Below, piece by piece: positions 29,221 to 46,538 of a stretch of 64,000 nucleotides of DNA. This DNA comes from Glycomyces fuscus. GTDB lineage: Bacteria > Actinomycetota > Actinomycetes > Streptosporangiales > Streptosporangiaceae. The translations under genes and the position numbers were made by a program. Numbering within the stretch: the first letter of the stretch is position 1; every line of letters starts with the position of its first letter. The notes beneath the pieces were generated by a model. That model was not told where the DNA came from. It did not search any database and was given only the letters and a program-made list of their open reading frames with translations. The stretch lies in NCBI GenBank assembly GCA_002529455.1, contig NYMS01000062.1:1-64000 (forward strand), read 5' to 3'.

Positions 29221-29313
29221 ACCGCGTTTCCCCGGCCCGTCGCGGTCCTGCCCCGTCGCGGAATCCCTGTGGCAATGTCGGGGACACCCCCCCCGAGGAG
29301 AGTGAAGACACCC

Positions 29314-30249: not shown

Positions 30250-30999
30250 TCACGTCAGCCTTCTGACCACCGACAGGGGGAGGCGCTTCATGGCGAAGCC
30301 GATGGGCGCCCACGGCCACGCGGGCACGTACGCCCTCACCCGGCGCCTCTCGATCGCGGCGACCATCGAGCGCACCCCGGGCTCGGTGTCCACCATGAAC
30401 CGCGTCCTCTGCTCCACGTGCTCGTTCATCTCCGAGCGGATGTAGCCCGGGTAGACCACGGACACGTCCAGCCCCGGCACACGCTCGGCGCGCAGGCCCT
30501 CGGCGATGGCGGCCACACCGGCCTTGGTGGCGGCGTAGACGGTCATCGACCTGCGCATGCCGCGCAGCGCCGACATCGAGGAGACCAGCACCAGGTGGCC
30601 GCGCCCCTGGGCGCGGAAGATCTCCATGGCCGCCTCCGACTGGGCCAGGGCGCCCACGAAGTTGGTCATCGCGGTCTGGCGGTTGGCGTCGTAGCGGCCC
30701 TTGCCCAGGGCCGCGCCCTTGCCGAGCCCGGCGTTGACGATCACCCGGTCCACGGTGCCCAGGGCGGCGGCCAGGTCCGCGAACACCGTGAACACGGCCC
30801 CGTCGTCGGTGACGTCCAGCGCCCGCAGCTCCACCCGGCGGTCGGGGTGGGCCGAGAGGATCTCCCCGCGCAGCTCCTCCAGCCTTCCGGTGCGGCGCGC
30901 GCACAGCCCCAGGTCGTAGCCCAGCGCCGCGAACTGGCGCGCCATCTCGGCCCCGAGCCCGGCGCTGGCGCCGGTGATCAGGATGGTCCCCTTGCTCAT
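30250..30999 (-). CDS. Short-chain dehydrogenase/reductase
   Basis: A 249-aa NAD(P)-dependent oxidoreductase. The cofactor motif TGASAGLGAEMA is at residues 8-19, NAG is seen in VIVNAGLGKG, the catalytic Ser is in VLVSSMSALRG, and the YxxxK is in MTVYAATKAGVAA. ATG 30999 gives the family N-terminus MSKGTILITGA, with GGAGGAAG upstream. The C-terminus is basic and slightly hydrophobic. It is divergent from a TetR gene across a 112-bp spacer that holds a palindrome, so that regulator probably controls it. Confidence 0.9.
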   Translation of the reverse strand: MSKGTILITGASAGLGAEMARQFAALGYDLGLCARRTGRLEELRGEILSAHPDRRVELRALDVTDDGAVFTVFADLAAALGTVDRVIVNAGLGKGAALGKGRYDANRQTAMTNFVGALAQSEAAMEIFRAQGRGHLVLVSSMSALRGMRRSMTVYAATKAGVAAIAEGLRAERVPGLDVSVVYPGYIRSEMNEHVEQRTRFMVDTEPGVRSMVAAIERRRVRAYVPAWPWAPIGFAMKRLPLSVVRRLT

Positions 31000-31092: not shown

Positions 31093-31107
31093 TTGAGCAA
31101 TGCTCAA
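31093..31107. promoter_or_regulatory. Palindromic operator between the SDR and TetR genes
   Basis: TTGAGCA-A-TGCTCAA, a perfect 7-bp inverted repeat around one base. It lies in the divergent spacer just before the TetR gene and overlaps a potential ATG at 31100. It is a likely autoregulatory TetR site. Confidence 0.6.
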
Positions 31108-32278: not shown

Positions 32279-33238
32279 TCAGGTGAGGGCCAGCAGGCGG
32301 ACGGGGCCGCCCGAACCGCCCCGGATGTTGGCGACGCCGACGACCGCCATCGCTCCGGCGTCCGGGGCCTTCTCCAGGTGGGCGACCATCTCCACGGCGT
32401 ACTTGTTCTCGCCGAGGAGGAACACGTGTCCCTCGGGGTTGGACGCGGAGTCGGGCCCGTAGTCGAAGCTCGGGGTGTCCACGGCGATCCCGGCGACGTC
32501 CCGCGCGCTCAGCAGCCAGGCGAGCGCCTCGATGTCGAACCCGGGGAAGTGGGCCACGCCGTCGCTGTCACGGTTGAGCATGGCCTCCTCGCTCTGGAGG
32601 ACCCGCGCGCTCCAGCCGGAGTCCATGGCGACCAGGGCGCCCCGGGGGATGCGGCCGTTGCGCCGTTCCCAGCGGCGCAGGTCGGCCACGCCGACCTGCG
32701 CGTCGTAGTCCCTCGCGGCGCGGTCGGCGATGCGGATGACCACGAGCGGGCAGACCAGGTCGCGCGGGTCCACCTCGTGGGTGTGCAGCGCGTCGGGGCT
32801 GTCGTTGAAGTGCCAGGGCGCGTCGAAGTGGGTCCCGGTGTGTTCGTCGATCTCCAGCTTGAGCGCGTTGAAGCCGTCCTCCTCGATCGACGCGAACTGG
32901 AAGATGTTGGGGTCGAGGATGTAGGGCCGGTAGATCGGGAAGTCGTTGTGGAGGACGTGGGTGAGGTCGGTGACCCTCAGCCGCGACGGGCTGATCCCCG
33001 CGATGGTCTGCGCGTGGGCTGACTCCACCGGGCCCCCGAGGGCGCCGATCCCGGTGAGCACGGCGCCGACGGCCGCCGACCCGGTCAGCATGCGCCGCCG
33101 GTCCACGCCCCCGCCGACCGGGCGCGCGGGCGGGGCGGGCCGCTCCGCCGTGATCGTGCCCCCGGGGGTTTCGGGGGCGTGTCCCGAGGCGGTCATGAAC
33201 GTCTTTCGGGCCTTGTGGATCACGTGGGGTCCGCACAT
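32279..33238 (-). CDS. Secreted cyclase-family (kynurenine formamidase-like) metal hydrolase
   Basis: A 319-aa protein with the cyclase-family metal motif in DEHTGTHFDAPWHF (HxGTHxDxPxHF). Members hydrolyse or lactonise amide and ester bonds. The N-terminus has a twin-arginine-type signal: GGVDRRRMLTGSAAVGAVLT, then a hydrophobic segment and AHAQ. The enzyme is probably exported by Tat. I chose ATG 33238 because GGAAGAGG lies about 9 bases upstream; ATG 33196 is the alternative (305 aa). A TATACT -10 box and a cluster operator lie upstream. It may act on the cluster product outside the cell, or confer resistance by opening it. Confidence 0.82.
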   Translation of the reverse strand: MCGPHVIHKARKTFMTASGHAPETPGGTITAERPAPPARPVGGGVDRRRMLTGSAAVGAVLTGIGALGGPVESAHAQTIAGISPSRLRVTDLTHVLHNDFPIYRPYILDPNIFQFASIEEDGFNALKLEIDEHTGTHFDAPWHFNDSPDALHTHEVDPRDLVCPLVVIRIADRAARDYDAQVGVADLRRWERRNGRIPRGALVAMDSGWSARVLQSEEAMLNRDSDGVAHFPGFDIEALAWLLSARDVAGIAVDTPSFDYGPDSASNPEGHVFLLGENKYAVEMVAHLEKAPDAGAMAVVGVANIRGGSGGPVRLLALT

Positions 33239-33720
33239 CGCAGTGTTCCTCTTCCAGGTCTGGCTGATCGAGCTAGAAGGAGTATACGATCTCTTATGCC
33301 AAAGTGAAGTCTGATCGGCATAAGATGCCTTTTGTTCAGACTGTGTACGGATCCCGCGGCACGGACCGGCTGGCGGTCGCTCCGGCTGCTCCCGGTGGCC
33401 GGGCGCACGCGTGGGCGGACGCGCGTCGGCGCGCACACGGGCGCCCGTCCGGGGGCGTGCCGCCTCCCGGCCGGGGCGGCGGGGAAGGGGGGGAGTGCGC
33501 GCGCCCGCGGTCCGCGTGACGCTTTCCGCCATTCTCCGTTCCCGTTTCGGGAACGGAATCCGCGCTGCCTTCAGGCCTGCCGTGCGCGCTTCCAGGAAAA
33601 GGGGAGAATTCCTCCTGCGGTGGCGTGCCCGGTTCCCCCGGATTTCGCGGGACCTCCGCTACCGCCGCGCCGGGGAATTCCCGACCGGCCCCGTTCGCGG
33701 AGCCGGGTGGCGCGGGCGGG
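33239..33720. other. Intergenic region between ligase 1 and cyclase genes
   Basis: About 480 bp with no gene. The left end holds the cyclase promoter and operator. The rest (33340-33720) is GC-rich, with a GGAACGGAATCC stretch near 33550 and no clear structure. Confidence 0.4.
33281..33335 (-). promoter_or_regulatory. Promoter/operator of the cyclase gene with GGCATAAG sites
   Basis: Reading leftward, a -10 box TATACT lies at 33286-33281. Half-sites CTTATGCC (33293-33300) and GGCATAAG (33317-33324) form an inverted repeat 16 bases apart. The stretch 33317-33335 matches the operator at 37426-37444 at 15 of 19 positions, so the same regulator is likely. Confidence 0.6.
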
Positions 33721-34965
33721 TCAGGCGGAGCACCGTTCCCGGGATCCGGTCCAGACCACCGTCGCCGGAGCAGAGCCGTCCGAGGACTGGTCCAGCAGCC
33801 TCCGGGAGACGGTCACCTCCAGGGTCTCGGGGGCCTCCTCGATGACCTCGGCCAGGGCCAGGCAGCCGGACACCACGTGGTGCCGGATCCACTCGACGGT
33901 GTAGAGGTCCGCCTCCGTTCCCGGGCGGAGCCGGACCCGCAGGCGCAGTCGCTCGTCCGGGGTGCGCGGGGAGATCAGGACCACCTGGGCGGCTTCGACC
34001 CAGTCGAGCTGGAGGGCGAGCGACGCCAGGTCGGCGGGGTCCACCAGACGGCTGAGCGGACCGTAGGGCGCGTCGATGCGGCTGTGGGTCCGCAGGGCCC
34101 GGCCGGGCAGTCCGCAGGGGCACGACGTCCACTCGGCCCCGGTGCCGGTGTCGTAGCGCAGCAGGGGGACGACCGACTTCGTGTGCATGACGGTCACGAG
34201 CATGCGTCCGTTGACGATCTCGGTGTGCTGGTAGGGGAGCGGGTGGAAGGTGTCCACCGCGCAGTCGGGCCGGCTGTGCCCGATGATCCAGGTCTCCGCG
34301 GACCCGAACAGCGTCCATGTGCGCAGGTGGGGGAAGTACGTGCGGATCAGCGAACGCGTCTGCGCGTCCATCGCCGGTCCGCTCCAGAGCACCTTGCGCA
34401 GGAAGTCCAGGCGCCGTCCGGACGCGGCGCAAAAGCGCAGGATGCGCTGGACGGTGTCCAGGGTGGCGGCGAGGGCGGTCACGCCGTGCTGCTCGAAGAG
34501 GTCGAGGCACGGCTCGATCATCTGGTCGGTCGGGGCGTCGAGCGACAGGGTGGGGACGCCGGCCCGCGCGGCGAGCGCGTTGTGGAGGTCGTGCGACGCG
34601 CGCATGTGGAACGGGGTGCTCAGGCTCGCGAGCAGGTCACCCGGCGCGAAGGGGCGCAGGTGGGGGGAGATCTCGTCCACGTGCAGGTCGGAGGGGAGCG
34701 CACCCATGCGGCTCGTGGCCGTCGTTCCGCCCATGAGGTGCAGCGAGGCCCGGGAGAGCTCGGCCGGGGTCTCCCGCATCAGCGTGTCCACGGCCTCGCT
34801 GAGCTCCTCGCGGGTGAGGGGAGGCAGGTCCGCCAGACGGGGTCTGCGCCCCCAGCCCAGGTGTCGGCCGTACTTGCGCCGCAGGGACGGGATCCTCGTG
34901 AGGCGCTGTAGCGCCTGGGTGAGGGAGAGCGGCCCCTCCACTTTCCCTCCGATATTCATCGTCAT
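33721..34965 (-). CDS. PaaK-like AMP-binding ligase, copy 1
   Basis: A 414-aa protein related to phenylacetate-CoA ligase/coenzyme F390 synthetase-type adenylating enzymes. The phosphate-loop position reads LHLMGGTTATSRMG near residue 76, and [12 protein letters not shown] near residue 220 is the adenine-site motif. VVPLLRYDTG corresponds to the hinge-preceding aspartate motif (YxTGD type), and SCPCGLPGRA is a zinc-type CxC. The C-terminal small domain is reduced and the usual catalytic lysine is not evident. It may adenylate an acyl or aryl acid for the cluster product. It is a clear paralog of the protein at 44716-46008, and its leader shares a conserved block with that gene. The start is ATG 34965 (an ATG 6 bases later is possible). 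Confidence 0.72.
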   Translation of the reverse strand: MTMNIGGKVEGPLSLTQALQRLTRIPSLRRKYGRHLGWGRRPRLADLPPLTREELSEAVDTLMRETPAELSRASLHLMGGTTATSRMGALPSDLHVDEISPHLRPFAPGDLLASLSTPFHMRASHDLHNALAARAGVPTLSLDAPTDQMIEPCLDLFEQHGVTALAATLDTVQRILRFCAASGRRLDFLRKVLWSGPAMDAQTRSLIRTYFPHLRTWTLFGSAETWIIGHSRPDCAVDTFHPLPYQHTEIVNGRMLVTVMHTKSVVPLLRYDTGTGAEWTSCPCGLPGRALRTHSRIDAPYGPLSRLVDPADLASLALQLDWVEAAQVVLISPRTPDERLRLRVRLRPGTEADLYTVEWIRHHVVSGCLALAEVIEEAPETLEVTVSRRLLDQSSDGSAPATVVWTGSRERCSA

Positions 34966-35017
34966 TCTCGTGCTCGCATCTCTGGGTGTAAGGGATTGCG
35001 TTCATCCCGCCGGGGGC

Positions 35018-35044
35018 GGCTGCGGTGACGTTAATGAATCTGAA
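35018..35044 (-). promoter_or_regulatory. Conserved leader block upstream of ligase 1
   Basis: A 27-bp block, 25 of 27 bases identical to 46064-46090 upstream of ligase 2. Its core on the coding strand is GATTCATTAACG, 53-79 bases before the ATG. The bases just before each ATG (ACGAGA) are shared too. It is a likely promoter or regulator site. Confidence 0.6.
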
Positions 35045-35597
35045 ATTCTCGTTAAGACTTCTCGGGGGAATGCCTTCCTCGAGGGCATGGCTGGTTCGAG
35101 GCCGTTCGGCCAGTAAAGCAGATTCCCTCTCCGTGGAACATGGCGAAGATTTCCCGCGGTAGTGAGCGAGCGATTACCACAGGTCATGTTCACTTGTTGG
35201 GGGACGTCTCGGAGCGTGTTCCCGTGGTGGCCGGATGCGGTCGGGTGATCTTGCTCACCGGATCGGGCGCGGTGGGGAGGAGGACGTCGGCGCGCTGTCC
35301 CGGGAAGCGCCGGGGCGGGTCCGCGGGAGGGGTGTCCGGGGGAGGCGGCCGTGCCCGGGCGTGCGGGCCCGGGACGTGGGTGCGTCCGGGGGCCACGCGG
35401 AGGGAGGGGGCCTGCGGGGGCCGTGCCGGTTCGGCCGTTCGACCCGGGCCCCGGGTCCGTGCGGACGGCGGTGCGGGCCCGGGGGCGGGTTCCGTGCGCA
35501 CCGGCGGCGGGGGGGCGTCTCCGGGGCATGCCGCGGCGCCGTGCGCTCGTGGCGGAGGGGGCCGTCACCGGCCGGGGCCGCCGGTCGGCGGAGGGGC

Positions 35598-35633
35598 GCC
35601 CGGCGGTGCCGAGCACTGTCGGCACCGCCGGGC
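35598..35633 (-). terminator. Hairpin terminator after the FAD monooxygenase gene
   Basis: A 15-bp perfect stem GCCCGGCGGTGCCGA / TCGGCACCGCCGGGC with a 6-base loop, 48 bases beyond the leftward gene's stop. Confidence 0.75.
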
Positions 35634-35680
35634 GGTGCGGTCGGCCGGGGAGTGGTCGGCCGGCCGCGTGGGTGTGGTCG

Positions 35681-37339
35681 TCAGGCGTGGCTCGGTACGG
35701 CCCGTCCGGCGCTCTCGGACGGGCGCCGCCGACCGGGGGCCGCACCCAGGTGCGCGGCCAGCTCCACCCGCAGCCGGGCGTGGTCCCGCGCGTGCCCGTG
35801 GGCGGCGACGTAACCGTCCGGTCGGACCAGGTGGTAGCCCGGAGCCGAGCACAGCCGGTGCTCCGAGGCCTGGCCGGGGGTCAGCGTCACCGTCCGCACC
35901 TGCGGCCGGTCGGCGACGAGCGCGGAGAACGGCTCCCCGGCGCCGGCCTGTCCGCGGCCGGGGGTGAGGGCGAGCGTCCACCCGGGGGTCCGCGACCCGC
36001 CTCCGCCCCCGTGCCCGGCGACCCCCAGGTCCACCGCGAGGGAGCGGGGGAGGGCGTGGCCGGTGCGGACGGCGCCCGCCAGCCGTCCGGTCAGCCGGCA
36101 CAGGGAGGGCCAGGCGGGTTCCTGGGTGAGGCGCGCGGGTGTGTAGCGGAACCGGTAACCGGCCATGACGGGCAGGTACCCGCGTTCCATGACCGGCTCC
36201 AGGAGCCGGAAGGCCGCGTCCCGGCCCGCCGTCTGCACGGGGTGCTGGAGCATCCACCCGCGTGTCTGGATGTCGGTGTCGCGCACCACCTGCCGCGCCA
36301 CGTCCTTGCGTTCCGGGCCGTAGGTGGCGAGCAGTTCCGGCCTGGCCCCGCCCCCGACCACCGCGGCCAGCTTCCAGGCCAGGTTCTGCGCGTCCTGCAT
36401 CCCGGTGTTGAGCCCCTGCCCCCCGGCCGGGCTGTGCACGTGCGCCGCGTCCCCGGCGAGGAAGACGCGGCCCCGCTGGAAGTCGTCGGCGTGCCGCCGG
36501 TGCACGCGGAACACGGACTCCCACACCGGGTCGACCAGGCGGACCCCGCCCGGTCCCTGCTCGTCCGTGATCCGCTGGAGCAGGTCCACCCCGGCCTTCT
36601 CCCCGGGCGGGAGGCTGGCGAAGAAGCGGAAGACGCCGTCGGGCAGGGCGACGACCACCAGGGCGCCCCGGGGCGACTGGTAGTAGAGCGCCTCGTCGGT
36701 CGGCAGCTCCCCCTCGATGCGGCAGTCCACGAGGGCGAACGCCGACTCGTAGGTGCTGCCGACGAAGCCGGTGCCGATCTGGGCGCGCACCGCGCTGCCG
36801 GCGCCGTCCGCGCCGACGACGAAGGGCGCGTGGTAGCGCTCGACGGTTCCGTCGGAGTGTTCGAGGATCGCGGTCACCCCCTCGGTCGCGGTGATGTCGC
36901 CGGAGAAGTCCAGCCCGTCGAGGGCGAGCAGCCGCACCCCCCGTTCGATGTGCCCGCCGAGCGCGTGCAGCCGCTCGGTGAGCACGCGCTCGGTCTCGTT
37001 CTGGGGCAGGCACAGCGGGGTCAGGTGCTCGGGGAACGTGAACGTGGCCAGCGGATCGCCGGAGGAGTAGTAGCGGAACCTGCGGATGTCGATGCCCGCC
37101 CGCCGGGTGGACTCCAGGGCCCCCAGGTCGTCCAGCAGGTCGAGGGTGCGCGGCCAGAGCAGCAGGGCCTTGGGGAAGGGGGAGGCGGACTCGGCCCGGT
37201 CGATGAGCCGCACGCGCACTCCTCGCCTCAGGAGTTCGCACGCGGCGGTCAGGCCGACGGGGCCGGCGCCGACCACGAGGACGTCGGAGGGGGCGCTGGG
37301 TGTGCGGTTGGAAGGGGTGTCGTCACTGGTCAACGGCAT
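35681..37339 (-). CDS. FAD-dependent aromatic-type monooxygenase
   Basis: A class A flavin monooxygenase of 552 aa (PheA/TfdB, FAD_binding_3 type). The N-terminal dinucleotide motif is VLVVGAGPVGLTAACELL at residues 20-37, the DG-type motif is VVGADGAGSAVR near residue 172, and the second FAD motif GDAAHVHSPAGGQGLN is near residue 291. A C-terminal thioredoxin-like domain (residues about 420-540) is typical of polyketide hydroxylases such as PgaE. It likely oxygenates an intermediate of the cluster. It is divergent from the MFS gene across a shared operator. The start is ATG 37339. Confidence 0.88.
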   Translation of the reverse strand: MPLTSDDTPSNRTPSAPSDVLVVGAGPVGLTAACELLRRGVRVRLIDRAESASPFPKALLLWPRTLDLLDDLGALESTRRAGIDIRRFRYYSSGDPLATFTFPEHLTPLCLPQNETERVLTERLHALGGHIERGVRLLALDGLDFSGDITATEGVTAILEHSDGTVERYHAPFVVGADGAGSAVRAQIGTGFVGSTYESAFALVDCRIEGELPTDEALYYQSPRGALVVVALPDGVFRFFASLPPGEKAGVDLLQRITDEQGPGGVRLVDPVWESVFRVHRRHADDFQRGRVFLAGDAAHVHSPAGGQGLNTGMQDAQNLAWKLAAVVGGGARPELLATYGPERKDVARQVVRDTDIQTRGWMLQHPVQTAGRDAAFRLLEPVMERGYLPVMAGYRFRYTPARLTQEPAWPSLCRLTGRLAGAVRTGHALPRSLAVDLGVAGHGGGGGSRTPGWTLALTPGRGQAGAGEPFSALVADRPQVRTVTLTPGQASEHRLCSAPGYHLVRPDGYVAAHGHARDHARLRVELAAHLGAAPGRRRPSESAGRAVPSHA

Positions 37340-37416
37340 CTCGGGGAGCTCCGATCGAACGGGTCGCGGTGGACGTCCCGGGTCCGCCCACCGCGCACCC
37401 GGCCAGGTCTATAAGA

Positions 37417-37445
37417 TTGACGATAGGCATAAGGTACCTTATGCT
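37417..37445 (+). promoter_or_regulatory. MFS-gene promoter with embedded 18-bp perfect palindrome
   Basis: A -35 TTGACG (37417-37422), 17-base spacer and -10 TATGCT (37440-37445). The perfect palindrome GCATAAGGTACCTTATGC occupies 37427-37444, so a bound repressor would cover the spacer and -10. A further copy, GGCCATAAGG, is at 37461-37470. The divergent monooxygenase gene starts 88 bases to the left. Confidence 0.75.
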
Positions 37446-37492
37446 CATCCACGAATGGATGGCCATAAGGATCCGAATTAAGGGGTAGGGGA

Positions 37493-39034
37493 ATGGCGAT
37501 AGAAGCGACGGATCGGCAGGGCGCACAGGTCGCCCCCGTCCCGTTGACCAGGGGGCAGGCGGTGGCCACACTCGTCGCCGTCGCCCTGTCCAGCGTGATG
37601 CTGCCGCTCGCCGTCACCGCCCCGGCCGTGGCGCTCACCCAGCTCGCGGCCGACCTGGACGCCACCGTCGGCGAGGCCCAGTGGGTCCAGAACGCCTACA
37701 ACGTCACCTTCGCGGCGTTCATGCTCGCCGCCGGAGGGCTCGCCGACCGCTTCGGCAGGCGCCGGGTCCTCGTCATCGGACTCGTCGTCTTCACCGCCAT
37801 GGCCACGGTGATCGGCCTCTCCTCCAACATCCTCGTCATCGACGTCGCCCGGGCGGTCCAGGGCATCGGCGCCGCGGGCATCATGACCAGCGGATCGGCG
37901 ATCCTCGCCGACTCCTTCCGGGGCGTGGCCCGGGCCCGGGCCTTCGGCCTGCTGGGGACCTCCTTCGGCTTCGGACTGGCCATGGGGCCGTTCGTCGCCG
38001 GGCTGATGGTCAACTTCCTGGACTGGCGCATGGTGTTCCTGATGAACCTCGCGTTCGCCGCCGTCGTCCTGCTCCTGGTCCGCTCGGTCCGGGAGTCGAG
38101 CGACCCCAACTCCACCTCGGTGGACTGGGGCGGCGTCATCACCTTCAGCACCAGCCTGTTCCTGCTCTCCCTGGCCTTCGTCCAGGGCGCCGAGGCGGGC
38201 TGGCTCAGCCTGGGCGCGATCGGCTCGGCGGTCGGGTTCCTCGTCTTCCTCGCGGCCTTCGTCCTGGTGGAGTCACGGGTCCGGCGCCCGATGTTCGACC
38301 TCTCGCTGTTCAAGCGGCCCACGTTCGTCGTGGTCGTCTGCCAGCCCTTCACCATCACCTTCGGCTTCGTGGTCCTGCTCGTCTACCTGCCGCCCTTCTT
38401 CCAGGGCGTCGGAGGGTTCGGCGCGGCCGAGGCCGGAGCCCTGCTCCTGCCCCTGACCCTGCCGGTGCTCGCCCTGCCGATGCTGGCCGGGCAGTTGGCG
38501 GCCAGGATCCCCCTGCGGGTCATGCTCGCCACCAGCTCCCTGCTCATCGCGGGCGGCTCCCTGTGGCTGATGACCCTCCAGCCGGGCCAGCACTGGACCG
38601 CGCTGGCCGCGCCCCTGGCCCTGTTCGGCACGGGGGTGGGCAGTGCCTTCGGCGTCATGGACAACGCGGCGCTCAGCTCCGTGGAGGTCGAGCGGGCCGG
38701 GATGGCCTCGGGCATCTTCAACACCATGCGCATCACCGGGGAGAGCGTGGCGATCGCCGGCGCCGGATCCGTGCTGGCGACCCTCTCCCTGAGCACGCTC
38801 GACCTGCCCTTCGCCAGCCCAGAGCAGGAGCGGGTCCTGGCGGGCGAGGCCACCCAGGGCCGGCTGGAGACGGCGCTGGGCCAGTTCGCCGCGGCGGACC
38901 GGGGAACCGCGCTGGAGGCGGTCTCGGCCAGCCTCACCTCCGCGATGCACACCACGTTCCTCGGCCTGGCCCTCCTCGCCCTGGCCGGAGCGGTGGTCAC
39001 GTTCCTCGTCGTCAGGGAACGCGAGCTCCGCTAG
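37493..39034 (+). CDS. MFS drug/metabolite exporter (DHA2 family)
   Basis: A 513-aa proton-coupled efflux protein with 14 predicted membrane segments. MFS motif A is GGLADRFGRRRVL after TM2, and motif C-like residues are in GTSFGFGLAMGPFVAGLM near TM5. The C-terminus ends VVRERELR. AGGGGTAGGGG precedes ATG 37493. Its promoter holds the cluster's palindrome. It is probably the export and self-resistance gene for the product of this cluster. Confidence 0.9.
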   Translation: MAIEATDRQGAQVAPVPLTRGQAVATLVAVALSSVMLPLAVTAPAVALTQLAADLDATVGEAQWVQNAYNVTFAAFMLAAGGLADRFGRRRVLVIGLVVFTAMATVIGLSSNILVIDVARAVQGIGAAGIMTSGSAILADSFRGVARARAFGLLGTSFGFGLAMGPFVAGLMVNFLDWRMVFLMNLAFAAVVLLLVRSVRESSDPNSTSVDWGGVITFSTSLFLLSLAFVQGAEAGWLSLGAIGSAVGFLVFLAAFVLVESRVRRPMFDLSLFKRPTFVVVVCQPFTITFGFVVLLVYLPPFFQGVGGFGAAEAGALLLPLTLPVLALPMLAGQLAARIPLRVMLATSSLLIAGGSLWLMTLQPGQHWTALAAPLALFGTGVGSAFGVMDNAALSSVEVERAGMASGIFNTMRITGESVAIAGAGSVLATLSLSTLDLPFASPEQERVLAGEATQGRLETALGQFAAADRGTALEAVSASLTSAMHTTFLGLALLALAGAVVTFLVVRERELR

Positions 39035-39452
39035 GCGGTGTCCTCCGGGACCTCCGCCTCGTCCCACCCGCCACCCGCCCCACCCTCGACGGACGCCGCG
39101 CGCGGGCCTGCCCGTGCCCGGGCGCCCGAGGAGGGGGAAGCGGGCCGGAGCAGGCACAGCGGTGCCCACGGCGGGGCGGGCCCGTGCCCGCCCGCCGCCC
39201 ACCACCCCCGACCGACGCCCACGGCGCGTGCTCCTCCCACGGGAACCCGCCCGCGTCACCTCCCCGGCCCCGTGGGCGCCCGAACCGGCCCCGCCGGGCG
39301 GGGCCGACCCACAGAACGGACCCCGGCCGCCCCTTCCAACCGGCCCTGCGCGACCCCGCCCCCGTCCGCCGTACCGACGCGCCGCGGGAGGCGCTCCTTC
39401 GAGACCTCCCCACCAGATCAGGTCCACGAGCCCGAGGAATGTGAGACAGACC
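39035..39452. other. Intergenic region before the AfsA-like gene
   Basis: About 418 bp of GC-rich DNA. Rightward and leftward frames are open but composed of Pro/Arg/Gly-rich shadow sequence. I see no terminator after the MFS gene, so readthrough into the AfsA-like gene is possible. A GAGGAATGTGAG stretch sits 11-22 bases before the AfsA start. Confidence 0.35.
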
Positions 39453-40562
39453 ATGCAGATGCCCGTGCGCCACCTCCTCAACGGCGCCACCGACACCGAC
39501 ACCGCGACCGTCGTCCCGGACGGCCCGGTCCTGGACTACGAGCGGACCGTCGACCGCACCGTCGTCCACCGGGAGTCGCTGGCGGAGGTCTTCGTCACCG
39601 ACACCCAGCCCCTCGGCGGCGACGCCCACGCGGCCGCCGCCCAGCTCCCCCGTTCGCACGCCTACTACGGCGACCACCTGCTCCGCCCCCGCCTCCACGA
39701 CCCGGTACTGCTGCTCGAAGCGTGCCGACAGGTGGGACTGGCCATCGCCCACACCCACTACGGCGTTCCCTTCGACCACAAGTTCGTGCTCACCACCATG
39801 CGCATCAACATCACGCGTCCCGAGCGGATGACGGTGGGGACGACCCCGTGCGCCCTGCGCATGCTCTGCTCCGTCGGTGACAAGAGGGTCAAGGAGGGGC
39901 GCGTCGTCGGCTACGACGCCAGGTTCCGCCTCTTCGTCGACGGCACCGAGGTCGGCAACGCCCTCGTCGGGCTGCGGTTCAAGTCCCCGGCGAGCTACAA
40001 GGCGCTGCGCCTGAGCAACCGCTCCGGCGCACCGGTCCCCTCCACGGAGACCTTCGACTTCACCGTCACCGGGGAGATCCCCGCCCCCTACCTCGTCGGC
40101 CGCTCGAACGGCGACAACGTGGTCCTGACCGGGCTCGCGGGTGACGGGGACACCGTGTCGGCCTCCCTGCGCGTGCTCCCGCAGCACCCGAGCCTGTTCG
40201 ACCACGCCCAGGACCACCTGCCGGGCATGGTCCTGATCGAGGCCGGCCGCCAACTGGCCCTGAACACGCTCATGGAGGTCCAGGGCACCTCGCCCGCCAA
40301 GGCCTACCCCGCCGAGATCACCGCCACCTTCACCAGCTTCGGCGAACTGGAGCCCCGGACCGAGGTGCGGGCCCGTACCGCTCCGGCGGCCGCGGAGGAG
40401 GCCGAGGGGGAGGACGTCTACTACACGCAGGGCGGGATCGTGGAGTTCCTCGCGCCCACCGGCGGCCAGGAGGCCGCCCCGGCCTCCGTCGAGGTGGACG
40501 TGCTCCAGAAGGGCGCGTCGATCTGCCGGATCGACGTCGGCCTGGTCCGCATCCCCGCGTGA
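39453..40562 (+). CDS. AfsA-family double-hotdog protein (gamma-butyrolactone-type synthase)
   Basis: AfsA proteins condense a beta-ketoacyl thioester with dihydroxyacetone phosphate, the first step to A-factor-type butyrolactones and to methylenomycin furans. The product is 369 aa, longer than classical AfsA (about 300). Two hotdog domains are visible: the first has SHAYYGDHLLRPRLHDPVLL, LLEACRQVGLAIAH; the second HDPxx-like DHLPGMVLIEAGRQLALN. Both carry the E-x-x-RQ type motif of the family. It is followed at 37 bases by an HAD phosphatase gene and then a KAS III gene. No ArpA-type receptor gene is nearby. Start ATG 39453 (MQMPVRHLLNG). Confidence 0.85.
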   Translation: MQMPVRHLLNGATDTDTATVVPDGPVLDYERTVDRTVVHRESLAEVFVTDTQPLGGDAHAAAAQLPRSHAYYGDHLLRPRLHDPVLLLEACRQVGLAIAHTHYGVPFDHKFVLTTMRINITRPERMTVGTTPCALRMLCSVGDKRVKEGRVVGYDARFRLFVDGTEVGNALVGLRFKSPASYKALRLSNRSGAPVPSTETFDFTVTGEIPAPYLVGRSNGDNVVLTGLAGDGDTVSASLRVLPQHPSLFDHAQDHLPGMVLIEAGRQLALNTLMEVQGTSPAKAYPAEITATFTSFGELEPRTEVRARTAPAAAEEAEGEDVYYTQGGIVEFLAPTGGQEAAPASVEVDVLQKGASICRIDVGLVRIPA

Positions 40563-40599
40563 GGCGGACCGCACCGACCCCCTACAGGCAGGAGACACC

Positions 40600-41346
40600 A
40601 TGACCACCCCGAACGGAACACCCGCCCCGGACGCCCGGGGACGCGGCATCGCGTTCTTCGACGTGGACGAGACGCTCATCGGACCGAAGAGCATGTTCTC
40701 GTTCCTGGAGTTCCACCTCCGGGACGGCTCCGGGCCGCCCGGCGCCTACGAGCGGGCCGTCGCCCGCCTGAAGGCGGCTGCGGCCCGGGGCGTGCCCCGC
40801 CAGGACGTCAACCGCCTCTACTACCGCCTCATGGAGGGCGAGTCCGTCGAGGGGCTGCGCGACGCGGGCCGGGCGTGGTTCTCCGAGGCCGCGCGCGTGC
40901 CGGGCTTCTGGCACGCCCCGGTGCTGGAGCGCCTGCGCCGCCACCGGGCCGAGGGCGACCTGGTCGTCCTGCTGTCGGGATCCTTCTTCGCCTGCCTGGA
41001 CCCGATCGCGGAGGCGGCCGGGGCGCACTGGGCGCTGGGCACGCGGCCCGCCGTCCGCGACGGGCTCCTGACGGGCGAGGTCCTCGTCCCGGTGATCGGC
41101 GCGACGAAGGGGGTCGCGGCCAGGGCCGCCGCCGCGGTGCGGGGCGTCCCCCTGTCCGCGTGCACCGCCTACGGAGACCACTCCAGCGACCTCGCCCTGC
41201 TGTCGGCCGTGGGCACCCCGGTCGTCGTCGGGGAGGACGCGACGCTCGCGGCGCACGCCGAGGCCAACGGTTGGGAACGCGTCCGCTCCGGCTCCGGCGA
41301 CCCGGTCCCGGCGCTCCCGGAGGAGACCCACACCTCCCGCCGGTGA
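40600..41346 (+). CDS. HAD-IB family phosphatase
   Basis: A 248-aa haloacid-dehalogenase-fold hydrolase. Motif I is FFDVDETLIG (nucleophile Asp and general acid Asp), motif II is LLSGSFFACL, motif III is the lysine in GATKGVAA, and motif IV is AYGDHSSDLALL. SerB-like HAD-IB enzymes remove phosphate from small metabolites. Its place just after the AfsA gene suggests it removes the phosphate from the condensation product, as MmfP does in methylenomycin furan synthesis. AGGAGA precedes ATG 40600. It is probably cotranscribed. Confidence 0.85.
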   Translation: MTTPNGTPAPDARGRGIAFFDVDETLIGPKSMFSFLEFHLRDGSGPPGAYERAVARLKAAAARGVPRQDVNRLYYRLMEGESVEGLRDAGRAWFSEAARVPGFWHAPVLERLRRHRAEGDLVVLLSGSFFACLDPIAEAAGAHWALGTRPAVRDGLLTGEVLVPVIGATKGVAARAAAAVRGVPLSACTAYGDHSSDLALLSAVGTPVVVGEDATLAAHAEANGWERVRSGSGDPVPALPEETHTSRR

Positions 41347-41497
41347 ACGCGTGGCGCCCGCGGACCGCGCCCGGCACGCACCGTCCGCGGCCGGGTCCCG
41401 TGCGCACTCCCGGCGCGTCCCGTCCCGGGGGCGCCTCCGCGCGGTGCGGCGGCGCCCCCGAATCCTCCCCGCAGTCCACCAAGAAGGAGACAGCACG

Positions 41498-42553
41498 ATG
41501 ACCATCGCCATCCTCGGCACGGGCTCGTACCTGCCGACCGAAGTGGTCGGCAACGAGCCGATCGCCCGCACCGCCGGTGTCACCGACGAGTGGATCCGCC
41601 GCAAGACGGGGATTCGCGAGCGCAGACGCGCCGCCCCCGACCAGGCCACCTCCGACCTCGCCGCCGAGGCCGGCCGCCGGGCGCTGGCCCAGGCGGGCAT
41701 CCCCGCGGAGCGCCTGGCCTACGTCATCGTCGCCACGTCCACCCCGGACCACCCCCAGCCCGCGACGGCCAGCATCACCCAGCACCTGCTCGGAGCGCGG
41801 TCCGCGGCGGCGTTCGACGTCAACGCCGTGTGCAGCGGGTTCGTCTACGCCCTCTCCGTGGCCGAGCACCTGCTGCGGCCGCACGGGGAGGCCTACGCCC
41901 TGGTCATCGGCGCGGACATCTACTCCCGGATCCTCGACTACGGCGACCGCAAGACGGCGGTCCTGTTCGGCGACGGCGCGGGCGCGGTCCTCCTGGGACC
42001 CGCACACGACCGCGGCGGGGTCATCGGGACCCAGCTGCTCACCGACGGGGACCACCACCACCTGATCAGGGTCCCGGCCGGGGGATCGCGGCTGCCCGCG
42101 TCCCCGGAGACCGTGGGCCAGGGCGAGCACTTCTTCACGATGGAGGGCCGCGGCGTGCGCGAGTACGTCACCCGGCGGCTGCCCGAGGCGGTCCACCGGA
42201 TGCTCGACGGCCTGGGCGTGGACCGGGAGGAGGTCCTCCACTTCGTGCCCCACCAGGCCAACGGCGCCATGCTCGCGGACGTCTGGCCGTCGCTGGGCCT
42301 GGACCGCGCCCGCCTCCACCTGACCGTGGAGACCCACGGCAACACGGGTTCGGGGTCGGTGCCCGTCGCCCTCGACACGGTGCACCGGGCCGGGCTGCTC
42401 GAGCAGGACGACCTCGTCCTGCTCGCGGGGTTCGGCGGTGGAATGAGCGTCGGACTGGCCCTCGTGCGGTGGAGCCCCGTGGTCGCGAAGGCGGCCTCCG
42501 TGTTCGCTCCGGCCCGTTCCGCGGGGGTCGCCCCGGTCCACGTCCCCGCGTAA
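41498..42553 (+). CDS. 3-oxoacyl-ACP synthase III (KAS III, FabH-like)
   Basis: A 351-aa ketosynthase that condenses an acyl-CoA starter with malonyl-ACP. The catalytic triad is complete: Cys in DVNAVCSGFVYAL near residue 113, His in HFVPHQANGAML, and Asn in HGNTGSGSVPVAL. ATG 41498 follows AAGGAGA. It probably supplies the beta-ketoacyl thioester used by the AfsA-like enzyme, although a stand-alone role in fatty-acid initiation cannot be excluded. No acyl carrier protein gene is in the cluster, so the ACP would come from the primary pathway. A GC-rich 18-bp palindrome lies downstream. Confidence 0.9.
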   Translation: MTIAILGTGSYLPTEVVGNEPIARTAGVTDEWIRRKTGIRERRRAAPDQATSDLAAEAGRRALAQAGIPAERLAYVIVATSTPDHPQPATASITQHLLGARSAAAFDVNAVCSGFVYALSVAEHLLRPHGEAYALVIGADIYSRILDYGDRKTAVLFGDGAGAVLLGPAHDRGGVIGTQLLTDGDHHHLIRVPAGGSRLPASPETVGQGEHFFTMEGRGVREYVTRRLPEAVHRMLDGLGVDREEVLHFVPHQANGAMLADVWPSLGLDRARLHLTVETHGNTGSGSVPVALDTVHRAGLLEQDDLVLLAGFGGGMSVGLALVRWSPVVAKAASVFAPARSAGVAPVHVPA

Positions 42554-43070
42554 CGCCCCCTCCCGGGACGGCCGGGGGAGCGCGGCCCCCGGGGGCCGCT
42601 CACGGGCCCCTCCGGGCGCGGTGAACGGCCGGGCCTTTCGCCCGTGACGTTCACCGCCGTTTCGGAACGCCTTTCGGAACGCCTTCGGAAGGGCGCCTTT
42701 CGCGACGCTCCGCCGGGCGCCTTTCCCAAGAAGGCGCGGAAGGGCCCATGCCCCTGCGCCGCGGGGCGGAAAGGCGGACCGCACTCCGGTGCGCCGCCGC
42801 GCGTTCCGCCGACGTCGCGCGCCATTGTCCGCGGGGCCCGCGGCGCGCCGCGGATTCGCGATCGGCCCACGCGGCCTCCGCGCGCGGCGCTTCCGGTTCC
42901 GGGCCTCCGGCCACGGCCGGGGGCGGACCGCGCCGTGCCCTCCCGCGACTTTGCCCGCTTCCGGTCCGTGCGGGGGCGGGCGCAGGCCCGCGGGTACGAG
43001 GCCGCGGCGGGGCCCGTGGGGACCGGACCGCGCCGGCCGGAACGTGCCGGGGCGCCCGTCCGGGCCGGCC
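42554..43070. other. 517-bp non-coding gap with iterated TTTCGGAACGCC-like repeats
   Basis: No credible gene. At 42658-42715 related units occur head to tail: TTTCGGAACGCC, TTTCGGAACGCC, TTCGGAAGGGCGCC, TTTCGCGACGC and CCTTTCCCAAGAAGGCGC. The rest is GC-rich. It separates the AfsA operon from the leftward MarR gene. Confidence 0.45.
42582..42599. terminator. GC-rich palindrome after the KAS III gene
   Basis: GCGGCCCCCGGGGGCCGC, an 18-bp perfect palindrome with no loop, 29 bases after the stop. It may be a terminator; with a zero-base loop the stem would be about 7 bp in practice. Confidence 0.5.
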
Positions 43071-43535
43071 CTACTCCTCGCCCAGGTCCGCCAGCTCCGT
43101 GCGGGTCTCCGCGGAGACCTCCGCGCACCGGCTGAGGAAGCGGACGAACTCGCCCTCCTCCTCGCGGCTGAACGCCTCGCTCAGACGCGTCTCCACCCGG
43201 ATCGCGACCTCGTCCGCCTTGGCGAGCAGGTCCCGTCCGCTGGGCGAGAGCCGCGTCTCCAGGATGTGGGAGTGCAGCGGATGGGGCTTGCGCTCGATCA
43301 GTTCGCGCCTGCTCAGGGTCGCGAGCACGGAGGACATCGTCTGGGGGGTCACCAGGCACCGGCGGGCCAGGATCGCGCCTGAGGCCCCGGGCTCCTCCGA
43401 GAGCACGAGGAGGACCGTGTACTGGGGGACCGAGAGGTTGAACTGCCGCAGAGCGGCGTGCTTCGCAGAGATCAGCTCCTGCTCGGCGCGCTTCAGGTGA
43501 TGACCGATCCGCTGGTCCATGGGAAGCTGGGTCAT
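43071..43535 (-). CDS. MarR family transcriptional regulator
   Basis: A 154-aa winged-helix regulator and the only regulator inside the core cluster. The recognition region is GASGAILARRCLVTPQTMSSVLATL (residues about 48-72) and the wing is SRRELIERKPHPLHSHILETRLSPSG. Start ATG 43535; ATG 43520 is an alternative. MarR proteins bind palindromes of this size class, so it is the best candidate to bind the GGCATAAG sites at 33317 and 37426. That assignment is inference. It lies downstream of the aldo-keto reductase gene on the same strand. Confidence 0.9.
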   Translation of the reverse strand: MTQLPMDQRIGHHLKRAEQELISAKHAALRQFNLSVPQYTVLLVLSEEPGASGAILARRCLVTPQTMSSVLATLSRRELIERKPHPLHSHILETRLSPSGRDLLAKADEVAIRVETRLSEAFSREEEGEFVRFLSRCAEVSAETRTELADLGEE

Positions 43536-43645
43536 CTGGGAATCGTATCTCAGGGCGCTTGTCCCTCCGTGCTCGTCGGCCGCCGTCAGGTCGGCGTCGG
43601 GGCTGCGCCGGGAGCGGCTCGAGGCCGCCCCCGGCCCGGGAAGGA

Positions 43646-44608
43646 TCAGTACCGCGCACCCGCGGTGGCGTCGGCGATGGTGTCGAGTTCGGCGACGTCC
43701 TCCGGCGAGAGCGCCAGGTCCGCGCCGCCGACGTTCTCGTCCAGGCGTTCGCGCCTCCTGGTCCCGGGGATGGGAACGACGGGCAGGCCCCAGCGCTCGG
43801 ACTGGGCGTGGACCCAGGCCAGGGCGACCTGTCCCGGGGTCGCGCCGTGCGCGTCGGCCACCCCCCGCACGATGGCGAGCAGTTCCTGGTTGCGCACGGC
43901 GTTCTCGCCGGAGAAGCGCGGCTTGCCGCGGCGGAAGTCGTCGGCGGGCAGCTCGTCCACCGGGGGGAGGGCCCCGGTGAGGAAGCCCCGGCCCAGCGGG
44001 GAGTAGGGGACGAAGCCCACACCGAGCCGCGCGCACTCGCCCACCACGGACTCCTCCACGTCGCGGCTCCACAGCGACCACTCGGTCTGCACCGCGGCGA
44101 TCGGGTGCACGGCGTGGGCGGCGCGCAGGTCGTCGGCGCTCACCTCGGACAGCCCCAGGTGGCGCACCTTGCCCTGGGCCACCAGCTCGGCCATGGCCCC
44201 GACCGTCTCCTCGACGGGGACCGAGGTGTCGCGCCGGTGCATGTAGTAGAGGTCGATCGTCTCGATGCCGAGGCGGGAGAGGCTGGCGTCGCACGCCGCG
44301 CGGACGTACTCCGCGTCCCCGCGGTGGCTGCGGGCGCCGGTGGCGCGGTCGCGGACGATCCCGAACTTGGTGGCGAGGACGACCTCCTCCCGCCGTTCCC
44401 GGACGACCTTGCCCACCAGCTCCTCGTTGGCCCCGTGCCCGTACATGTCCGCGGTGTCGAGGAAGTTCAGGCCCAGGTCCAGGGCGTGGTGCAGGGTCGC
44501 GAGGGATTCGGCCTCGTCCCCCGGGCCGTAGAACTCGCTCATTCCCATGCAGCCCAGCCCCTGGGCGGACACGGTGGGGCCGTCGGTGGTCAGCGGGACA
44601 GTCCGCAT
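43646..44608 (-). CDS. Aldo-keto reductase
   Basis: A 320-aa NADPH-dependent carbonyl reductase. The catalytic tetrad is recognisable: Asp and Tyr in [11 protein letters not shown], Lys in LATKFGIV, and His in DLYYMHRRD. The cofactor end has [17 protein letters not shown] and the body is a TIM barrel. Start ATG 44608 ([10 protein letters not shown]). It may reduce a keto group of the cluster intermediate, the role that BprA-like or other reductases play in butyrolactone pathways, but that is inference. It lies between ligase 2 and the MarR gene on the same strand. Confidence 0.92.
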
Positions 44609-44715
44609 GCGCGCTCCTGTGGTCGGTGCTCGTGCTCGACGCGACTCAGGGACGGCGCCACCTGGGGGTGTGACCGGGGTGCCGCGGACAGCCCGTGCAA
44701 CCTGTCCTCCTGAAT

Positions 44716-46008
44716 CTATTTCGTGAAGGTATCATAAGAACCCTGATTCGAAGTCGATATCGATTGGATTCGGAGGCGTCCCCCCTCGCGCACCAGGAAC
44801 TCGGGGGCCGACCCGTCCGGGCGTTCCCGCAGCAGGTGCCGGGTGACGATGACCTCGAAGGACTCCGGCGCCTCCTCCGTCGCCTCGGACAGGCCCAGGG
44901 ACTCCGACAGCACGTGCTGCCGTATCCACTCGCCGGTGTAGAGCTCGGACCGGGTCTCCGGGCGCAGCCGGACCCGCAGGTGGAGCCGTTCGTCCTCGGT
45001 GTGCGGGTCCACCAGGACGACCTGGGCCGCCTCCACCGAGTCCAGCCGCAGGGCCAGCGGTACGAGGTCGCGGGGGGAGGCCACGCGGCTGAGCTGCCCC
45101 ATCGGGGCGTCTATGCGGTTGTGGGTGCGCACCGCGGGGCCGGGCAGGTCGCAGGGGCAGGACGCCCACTCGGCCGCGACCCCGGTCTCGTAGCGCAGCA
45201 GCGGGACGACCGCCTTCTCGTGCGTGACGGTCACCAGCATGTGCCCGTCGACGATCTCCGTGTACTGGTGGGGGAGCGGGTGGAGGGTGTCGTTGGCGCA
45301 GTCCGGCCCGCTGTGCCCGATGATCCAGGTCTCCGCCGAACCGAAGAGCGTCCACGTGCGCAGGTGGGGGAAGTGCGTCCGGATCAGCGAGCGGGTGGCG
45401 GCGTCCATGGCGGGGCCGCTCCACAGCACCTTGCGCAGGAAGCCCAGGTCCCGGCCGGACGCGGCGCAGTAGCGGAGCATGCTCCGGAAGGTGTCGAGGG
45501 TGGTGCCCAGGGCGTTGACCCCGTGGCGCTCGAACAGGTCGAGGTAGGCGTCGATCATCTGGTCGGTCGGCGCGACCATGGAGAGGGTGGGTATCCCGGC
45601 CCTGGAGGCGAGCCCGTTGTGCAGGTCCTGGCAGGCCCGCATGTGGAAGGGGGTGCCGAGGGTGGTGAACAGGTCGCCCGGCTCGAAGGGGCGCACGTGC
45701 GGCGCGATCTCGTCCAGGTACAGGCCCGCCGGAACCGCCCCCATGCGCATGGTCGACCGTGTGCCCCCCATGACGTGCAGGGAGGCGCGGGTCAGGGCGG
45801 ACGGGTCGGTGCGCACCAGGGTGTCGATCGCCCGGCCCAGTTCGTCCCTGCCGAGCGTGGGCAGCTCGGACAGCTCCGGCGCGGAGGCTCCGGAGGCGTG
45901 GCGCAGGTACTTCTCCCGCAGCACCGGGATCCTGGACAGCTTGTCCAGCGCACGCGCCGTGGACGGAGCCCCGCCGTGGGACACCCGTGAACCGAAACTC
46001 GTCGTCAT
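44716..46008 (-). CDS. PaaK-like AMP-binding ligase, copy 2
   Basis: A 430-aa paralog of the ligase at 33721-34965. It conserves [31 protein letters not shown] and the [14 protein letters not shown] block. The phosphate-loop position reads [14 protein letters not shown], so the TTG of classical adenylating enzymes is replaced. The C-terminus has an extra AT-richer tail ([20 protein letters not shown]) that copy 1 lacks. The start is ATG 46008, and the bases before it match those before copy 1. Two such paralogs at opposite ends of one cluster suggest separate substrates or a heteromeric enzyme. Adenylation or CoA ligation is not shown. Confidence 0.72.
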
Positions 46009-46538
46009 TCTCGTACTCGCGTTCTTGGTGTATTCAGATGCGGCCGACCATGGACGTCCTTGCGGCTGCGGTGCCGTTAATGAATCCGAAGCGACGAGAA
46101 GTGCCCTGGATTTGTCGTCCATTCGCGGCGGGGCAGAGCCGCGGGTGCCTTCGCAGTACATCCGCTCAGGAGAATGCGACGATATCCGAGGGGCCCCGGG
46201 GGCCCGTGTGACCGTGCGGACACCTTTCGTCATCGTCCGTCGTCGGGGCCTTTTCCGGAGTCGGGTGATTACTTCTCGTGAAATATGACCTTCATCACGT
46301 GCGGATCCCGGGATCTGACTCTCGGTGAGTGGGGCCCCGCGTCGGTCCGGTACACGCCGAGGTGGCGGACCGGACCGGCGGCACGGCCGCGCGCACCCGA
46401 CTCCGGGCTGTGGACAACCGCTGCGCCGACCGCACCGCGCTATACGCTGGAAGCGTTCACCCTGGCGCATGCCTCCGAGACCCTTCGACGCCGCAGGGCG
46501 GGTACGCCGGGATGGCCTCCCAACCAAGAGAGAGCACC
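46009..46538. other. Intergenic region between ligase 2 and proA
   Basis: About 530 bp of divergent spacer. The left part holds the ligase 2 leader. An AT-richer patch at 46265-46300 (ACTTCTCGTGAAATATGACC) may hold a promoter. No gene is supported. Confidence 0.4.
46064..46090 (-). promoter_or_regulatory. Conserved leader block upstream of ligase 2
   Basis: A 27-bp block matching 35018-35044 at 25 positions, at nearly the same distance from the start codon (55-82 bases). Core GATTCATTAACG on the coding strand. Confidence 0.6.

Follow-up and report, generated by a model that had tools for sequence, protein, structure and literature searches.

Relation to described furan and butenolide systems

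The described systems closest to the locus studied here are the sphydrofuran and methylenomycin clusters, the MMF-type loci (mmfLHP) and a killing locus of Ruegeria pomeroyi DSS-3. The sphydrofuran cluster of Streptomyces ambofaciens GI-9 has a KAS III, two aldo-keto reductases (AKRs), a FAD monooxygenase (FMO), an ABM protein and a phosphatase beside AvrD (PMC11195616), and sphydrofuran derivatives have been reported from Nocardiopsis in two papers where neither "genome" nor "gene cluster" appears as a term (PMC9917766, PMC11944181). For methylenomycin, KAS III and MmyD are proposed to make a butenolide, and deletion of mmyD abolished production (PMC12593393). The AfsA locus of R. pomeroyi was needed for killing (PMC7426152). 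We analyzed 64,000 nucleotides of Glycomyces fuscus DNA (the window; positions 1 to 64,000 of contig NYMS01000062.1, host assembly 6.56 Mb) and confirmed a ten-gene unit at 32279-46008, in which an AfsA-type protein is accompanied by a HAD-IB phosphatase, a KAS III, an FMO, an AKR, an MFS exporter, a MarR-family regulator, a PF04199 cyclase/hydrolase and two PaaK-like ligases. This locus is a real, conserved and sharply bounded AfsA-based variant among the AvrD/AfsA furan-butenolide systems. We consider it fairly probable that it is a patchily distributed biosynthetic cluster for a small exported metabolite of furan or butenolide type, probably antibiotic-like and not a hormone.

The window cluster shares with the sphydrofuran cluster a KAS III, an AKR, an FMO and a phosphatase beside a butenolide synthase; the sphydrofuran island likewise contains an MFS gene, and the ABM gene of that cluster also occurs in relatives of the window cluster. 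In contrast, the sphydrofuran cluster has AvrD instead of AfsA, a histidine phosphatase instead of HAD-IB, and additional acyl carrier protein (ACP), CMD and hotdog thioesterase genes, and neither PaaK-like nor PF04199 genes are among those listed in the excerpted account (PMC11195616). The host genome had no AvrD (a gene present in 5 of the 40 genomes of the genus), and sphydrofuran was therefore rejected as the product of the locus. Three AvrD clusters of the genus (G111, G117 and G120) hold AvrD, KAS III, ACP, FMO and AKR, with KAS III, FMO and AKRs 35-55% identical to those of the window and its relatives. By Pfam, these clusters also have a histidine phosphatase (G111, G120), a hotdog thioesterase (G111, G117), ABM (G117) and CMD (G120). 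The gene lists of these three AvrD clusters (L145, L146, L147) are near that of sphydrofuran in S. ambofaciens, which fits the Nocardiopsis reports. Separately, G115 and G099 hold both a window-type cluster and AvrD genes (L148, L149), and the AvrD stretches fetched from them gave no KAS III, FMO or AKR matches.

Locus L060 of S. anthocyanicus, which we take from its gene content and known gene names to be the methylenomycin cluster, resembles the window cluster in KAS III (42% identity), HAD-IB (44%) and MFS. It differs in that AKR and PgaE-type FMO are not annotated in the L060 stretch opened. Methylenomycin biosynthesis also differs in using AvrD-type MmyD, which is thought to act on a pentulose, and in having an ACP (PMC12593393).

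The initial annotation had likened the AfsA and phosphatase pair to MMF-locus logic, and both genes are indeed present and adjacent, as in MMF-type loci (L060, L141-L143). However, those loci have an ScbR receptor and an acyl-CoA-dehydrogenase-like or other oxidoreductase partner, and their AfsA is only 29-31% identical; no acyl-CoA-dehydrogenase-like flavoprotein lies between AfsA and HAD in the window, and the domain is absent from all ten genes. The R. pomeroyi locus (L140) is similar in AKR (51%), HAD-IB (40%), MFS and an annotated AfsA-related protein, but this protein is short, without a significant blastp match to window AfsA (E 0.05), and the locus has tautomerase, CMD and LysR genes, with KAS III and FMO not annotated in the stretch. 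A search of the literature found no described pathway with the gene set of the cluster and no product name for it. The label undescribed, which the initial annotation proposed, carries the reservation that the sphydrofuran gene list is similar, AvrD replacing AfsA (PMC11195616).

Boundaries and distribution of the cluster

Cluster-type AfsA (at least 65% identity) was found in 7 of 40 genus genomes, each with a ligase at the same locus. The core common to these seven is FMO, AfsA, HAD, KAS III, MarR, AKR and one ligase, in conserved order, with extra genes intervening in some. An eighth genome, G104, has ligase and KAS III; its contig starts inside KAS III and the search gave no AfsA. A ligase search over 341 family genomes gave any match in 39, mainly weak or distant. 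Close matches (E <1e-100) came from 8 of the 40 genus genomes and from G132 (46%), a genome outside the genus.

In these Nocardiopsis-type bacteria, the cluster sits between a small conserved gene (31732-type) and proA. The proA side is visible in all 8 cluster genomes and the opposite side in 6 (window, G124, G094, G112, G114 and G115), the contigs of G104 and G099 ending before it. Within the genus, 32 genomes gave no close ligase match. None of the 20 fetched from this group had cluster genes at the site; the 31732-type gene was within approximately 0.8 kb of proA in 18, gave no match in G100, and was separated from proA in G123 by a single AKR gene (65% identity to the third AKR of G115). 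The empty site therefore indicates an inserted segment of approximately 32.2-46.3 kb, with which the boundaries first drawn for the cluster agree. Three neighbors were rejected as cluster members, being present at the site in cluster-free genomes: the TetR gene at 31100 (11/20), the SDR gene at 30250 (16/20) and the hydrolase gene at 29269 (18/20).

Content varied within the genus. MFS is absent from the G114 cluster, and a second cyclase gene separates HAD from KAS III in G112. The set is fuller in G115, which has cyclase, third AKR, ABM, CynX-like MFS, second AKR (81% identical to its Streptomyces NBC_00158 counterpart) and a carboxyltransferase gene. Several genes of G112, G114 and G099, all draft assemblies, have frame breaks.

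The core also occurs in Streptomyces, Kitasatospora, Streptacidiphilus and Actinomadura. A named scan with an AfsA profile gave 66 loci. Of these, 28 were joined by 3 plasmid loci to give 31 cluster-type loci, defined by an AfsA at least 49% identical to that of the window or of NBC_00158, and were compared with 37 other AfsA loci; the thresholds for individual genes were of our choosing. The window, G094 and L106 (a second copy from the L083 genome) stand outside the 31. Fisher values computed on such loci count related ones as independent. Genes more frequent in the cluster-type loci were KAS III (31 vs 3), HAD (31 vs 17), FMO (29 vs 12), MarR (24 vs 1), ligase (18 vs 0), second AKR (13 vs 0), cyclase (10 vs 0), ABM (8 vs 0), ADH (7 vs 0), second MFS (5 vs 0) and SDR (3 vs 0). 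Polyketide synthase (PKS; 4 vs 3) and carboxyltransferase (1 vs 2) were rare in both, and MFS (16 vs 18) and AKR (14 vs 21) did not separate the two groups. The genes of the cluster co-occur in other families, and KAS III accompanies AfsA in all 31 relatives, in keeping with the dedicated KAS III that had been proposed. Plasmid clusters of NBC_00158 and NBC_01276 hold the core set together with a PKS. Taken together, synteny, the empty site, co-occurrence and a shared palindrome support the initial view of the ten genes as one cluster. In Streptomyces diastatochromogenes ATCC 21481 the cluster lies near both ends of a 7.7-Mb contig (L083, L106; many split matches), perhaps in terminal repeats.

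Genes and control elements

Gene set, conservation, boundaries, catalytic motifs and the conserved palindrome are established by sequence (Table 1). The codon-position GC filter was passed by 8 of the 10 genes; ligase 2 and MarR failed it and were found by translation of the minus strand. Pfam matches above cut-off were Cyclase, FAD_binding_3, MFS_1, AfsA (twice), HAD, ACP_syn_III, Aldo_ket_red and MarR. The starts of cyclase (an MCGP/MCSP start common to relatives), AfsA and KAS III were revised.

Table 1. Coordinates of genes and sequence elements of the cluster in the window.
Feature	Position	Strand	Remarks
PF04199 cyclase/hydrolase	32279..33238	-	HTGTHxDxPxH motif; RRRMLTG Tat-like signal
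Ligase 1, PaaK-like	33721..34965	-	A7 Asp lost; ligase 2 duplicate
27-bp element 5' of ligase 1	35018..35044	+	second copy 5' of ligase 2
FMO	35681..37339	-	lineage known from AfsA loci
Palindrome ATAAGGTACCTTAT	37429..37442		FMO/MFS divergent promoter; candidate MarR operator
DHA2-type MFS exporter	37493..39034	+	
AfsA-type double hotdog protein	39453..40562	+	candidate butenolide synthase
HAD-IB phosphatase	40600..41346	+	related to HAD-IB proteins of AfsA/AvrD loci
KAS III	41498..42553	+	Cys-His-Asn motifs retained
MarR-family regulator	43071..43535	-	
AKR	43646..44608	-	51-60% identity to 4 AKRs of other AfsA/AvrD loci
Ligase 2, PaaK-like	44716..46008	-	A7 Asp lost
Element 5' of ligase 2	46064..46090	+	copy of 35018-35044

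The closest named relative of the window AfsA is that of Streptomonospora nanhaiensis 12A09, followed by Nocardiopsis strains; a sequence search for solved relatives found none. In the AfsA tree (midpoint roots, as in all our trees), whose gamma-butyrolactone (GBL) group comprised MmfL, 3 MMF-type plasmid proteins and the C60 copy of the host genome, with the A-factor and SCB synthases left out, a long supported branch parted the window AfsA from four MMF-type AfsA proteins. The catalytic motifs of the KAS III, HAD and PF04199 families are known. Among 20 plasmid records matching the HAD protein, an AfsA or AvrD gene lay nearby in each of the 10 that we opened, which were mainly the strongest matches. 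The host genome has a second AfsA locus (C32:1-14000, L135), where a single-hotdog AfsA is close to both a KAS III and an acyl-CoA-oxidase-like gene, and a third (C60:130000-146000, L136), with a SARP-type regulator, AfsA, HAD hydrolase and FAD monooxygenase. AfsA systems are not confined to actinomycetes: a Klebsiella michiganensis plasmid from a fruit fly sample (L144) carries AfsA-related, HAD-IB, ACP and asnB genes close to IS6 elements.

The FMO is similar to hydroxylases of aromatic polyketides and of rifampicin. In the FMO tree, 16 of 21 rows from cluster-type loci formed one branch (100/99), nested in a 26-row set drawn purely from AfsA loci (99/96). FMOs of the three AvrD clusters joined other AfsA-locus FMOs (96/98), and the FMO of the C60 locus was on a long branch outside the main sets. 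The cyclase had been described as Tat-exported; the window protein does carry RRRMLTG, which resembles the Tat motif, but the RR motif is absent from two aligned Streptomyces relatives.

The ligases were initially described as two divergent adenylating-type proteins, a view that our results do not support. Ligases 1 and 2 are paralogues with 66% identity to each other, ligase 1 was detected in just 4 of the 8 genomes that carry the cluster (window, G124, G094 and G112), and both lack the A7 Asp, so that two divergent substrate-activating enzymes were rejected. AMP-binding matches were 23.4 bits (ligase 1) and 24.8 bits (ligase 2), below the Pfam cut-off of 29.9. The weak match, the GSAETW region and CxCG are reminiscent of the PaaK phenylacetate-CoA ligase family, in contrast to the sub-cut-off scores, the altered P-loop and the lost A7 Asp. 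A sequence search with ligase 1 for solved relatives found none.

Among the conserved A3, A5 and A7 motifs of adenylate-forming enzymes, the Asp of A7 (RTGD) binds the ATP ribose. Among 36 aligned relatives it is absent from 18 and present in 18; it is missing from 12/12 genus copies and from L043, L044, L056, L057, L081 and L082, and kept in clusters of Streptacidiphilus (L070), Kitasatospora (L074) and Streptomyces sp. NRRL B-24484 (L076). Since these three clusters keep it, the Asp was probably lost within the ligase family, and because an ATP-binding residue is gone, the window ligases probably do not adenylate. In two other genera (L043, L044), ligase relatives (42-46%) lie near MarR genes (68-71%), with no AfsA in the stretch fetched; ligase and MarR may therefore be an older pair.

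The palindrome ATAAGGTACCTTAT (at most 2 mismatches) was found 5' of FMO in all 7 clusters holding that stretch (window, L036, L037, L038, L039, L041 and L042); in L041, which is without MFS, it faces AfsA. It occurs once in the window and was matched in 1 of 100 shuffles. At up to 1 mismatch it was present in 1 of 10 scanned loci of other genera (L071, after KAS III). Because a MarR gene lies within the cluster, the palindrome is likely an operator. A copy with 3 mismatches is located at 33319-33334, approximately 80 bp 5' of the cyclase start.

Proposed product and alternative explanations

From gene content we propose the following reactions, regulatory link and product class. KAS III would extend a short acyl-CoA with malonyl-ACP taken from fatty-acid synthesis, and AfsA would join the resulting beta-ketoacyl thioester to dihydroxyacetone phosphate or a similar phospho-ketose, giving a phosphorylated butenolide from which HAD-IB would take off the phosphate. 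AKR may then reduce and the FMO oxygenate the product, the cyclase-family protein may close or open a lactone or ester, and the MFS protein would export the product. MarR would sense the product and govern the divergent FMO/MFS promoter, and the PaaK-like proteins, as degenerate ligases, would probably be acyl- or CoA-handling helpers without adenylation.

Several observations weigh against a furan/butenolide cluster of this kind. Six ACP queries found no ACP gene at 32.0-46.5 kb (best E 0.27), whereas AvrD clusters have one. Ligase is missing in 13 and cyclase in 21 of the 31 relatives, partly through contig ends and flank limits. In the FMO tree, which includes few outside FMOs, 5 of the 21 cluster-type rows fall outside the 16-row branch (L065 and L067 as sister, 3 far away). 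Four of the 31 relatives have a PKS, 56-100% identical to that of NBC_00158, and acyl units may therefore differ. AfsA scored above the NCBIfam ScbA/BarX cut-off (216.6 vs 200 bits), and a GBL-like product is therefore possible. Finally, the R. pomeroyi afsA mutant loses transcription of its own locus, and the authors link afsA to GBL regulation (PMC7426152).

The last two points would favor a GBL autoregulator (hormone) locus with accessory genes, as would the ScbR-like genes found beside the cluster in 3 of 31 relatives (a Streptacidiphilus, for which a model score above cut-off was checked, a Kitasatospora and Streptomyces sp. NRRL B-24484). These genes also qualify the initial claim that an ArpA-type receptor is absent, which held for the window: no ScbR/ArpA-like receptor gene was found in its 64 kb, and the nearby TetR, itself shared with cluster-free genomes, scored 18 against a receptor-model cut-off of 150. 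With the long branch between the window AfsA and the MMF-type proteins, and with ten genes, including an exporter and an oxygenase, seeming more than a hormone would need, we judge a hormone locus unlikely.

Alternatively, the pathway could be aromatic or quinone-forming, with PKS or ligases giving an aryl acid, KAS III extending it, AfsA adding a triose, and FMO and ABM yielding a quinone. The hydroxylase-like FMO, the ABM gene in 8 of 31 relatives and the PKS in 4 (domain order read for NBC_00158 only, as KS-AT-DH-ACP, presumably an orsellinate-synthase-like enzyme) are consistent with this. However, a close copy of such an orsellinate-type PKS elsewhere in the host genome was rejected, since the matches there were partial and did not exceed 48% identity, and the ligases lack the A7 Asp. 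Searches at 26-48 kb for remnants of ABM, ADH and second MFS gave no convincing match (ABM and second MFS none at E <1), and second AKR matched only the AKR gene there (31%; at most 44% in the rest of the genome). We therefore regard an aromatic product as distinctly improbable. The ABM protein (L138:9652-9945) had a sole NCBIfam match to LsrG, a phospho-AI-2 isomerase, far below cut-off (44.6 vs 135 bits), a hint that it may act on a small phosphorylated ketone. That two or more unrelated units are neighbors by chance is very improbable, because although ligase 1, cyclase, MFS, second MFS, ABM and second AKR differ between species, site and core order are constant in the genus, and co-occurrence in other families and synteny largely refute it.

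A furan/butenolide-type, probably antibiotic-like cluster has wider meaning. The usual annotation of AfsA genes is hormone synthase; here a distinct AfsA lineage is found in large clusters, and its dedicated KAS III and phosphatase parallel the AvrD systems that underlie methylenomycin and sphydrofuran. This suggests that at least five actinomycete genera carry small-molecule clusters still to be mined, of which the 14-kb segment described here is sharply bounded and easily cloned. The ligases, with Asp retained in some clusters and lost in others, offer a natural series in which adenylate-forming enzymes degenerate. We tentatively suggest that AfsA, KAS III, HAD-IB, FMO and AKR might mark an unrecognized actinomycete family making new triose-derived furan or butenolide antibiotics, in which the PaaK-like lineage might have lost adenylation and gained a role in acyl transfer or self-protection.

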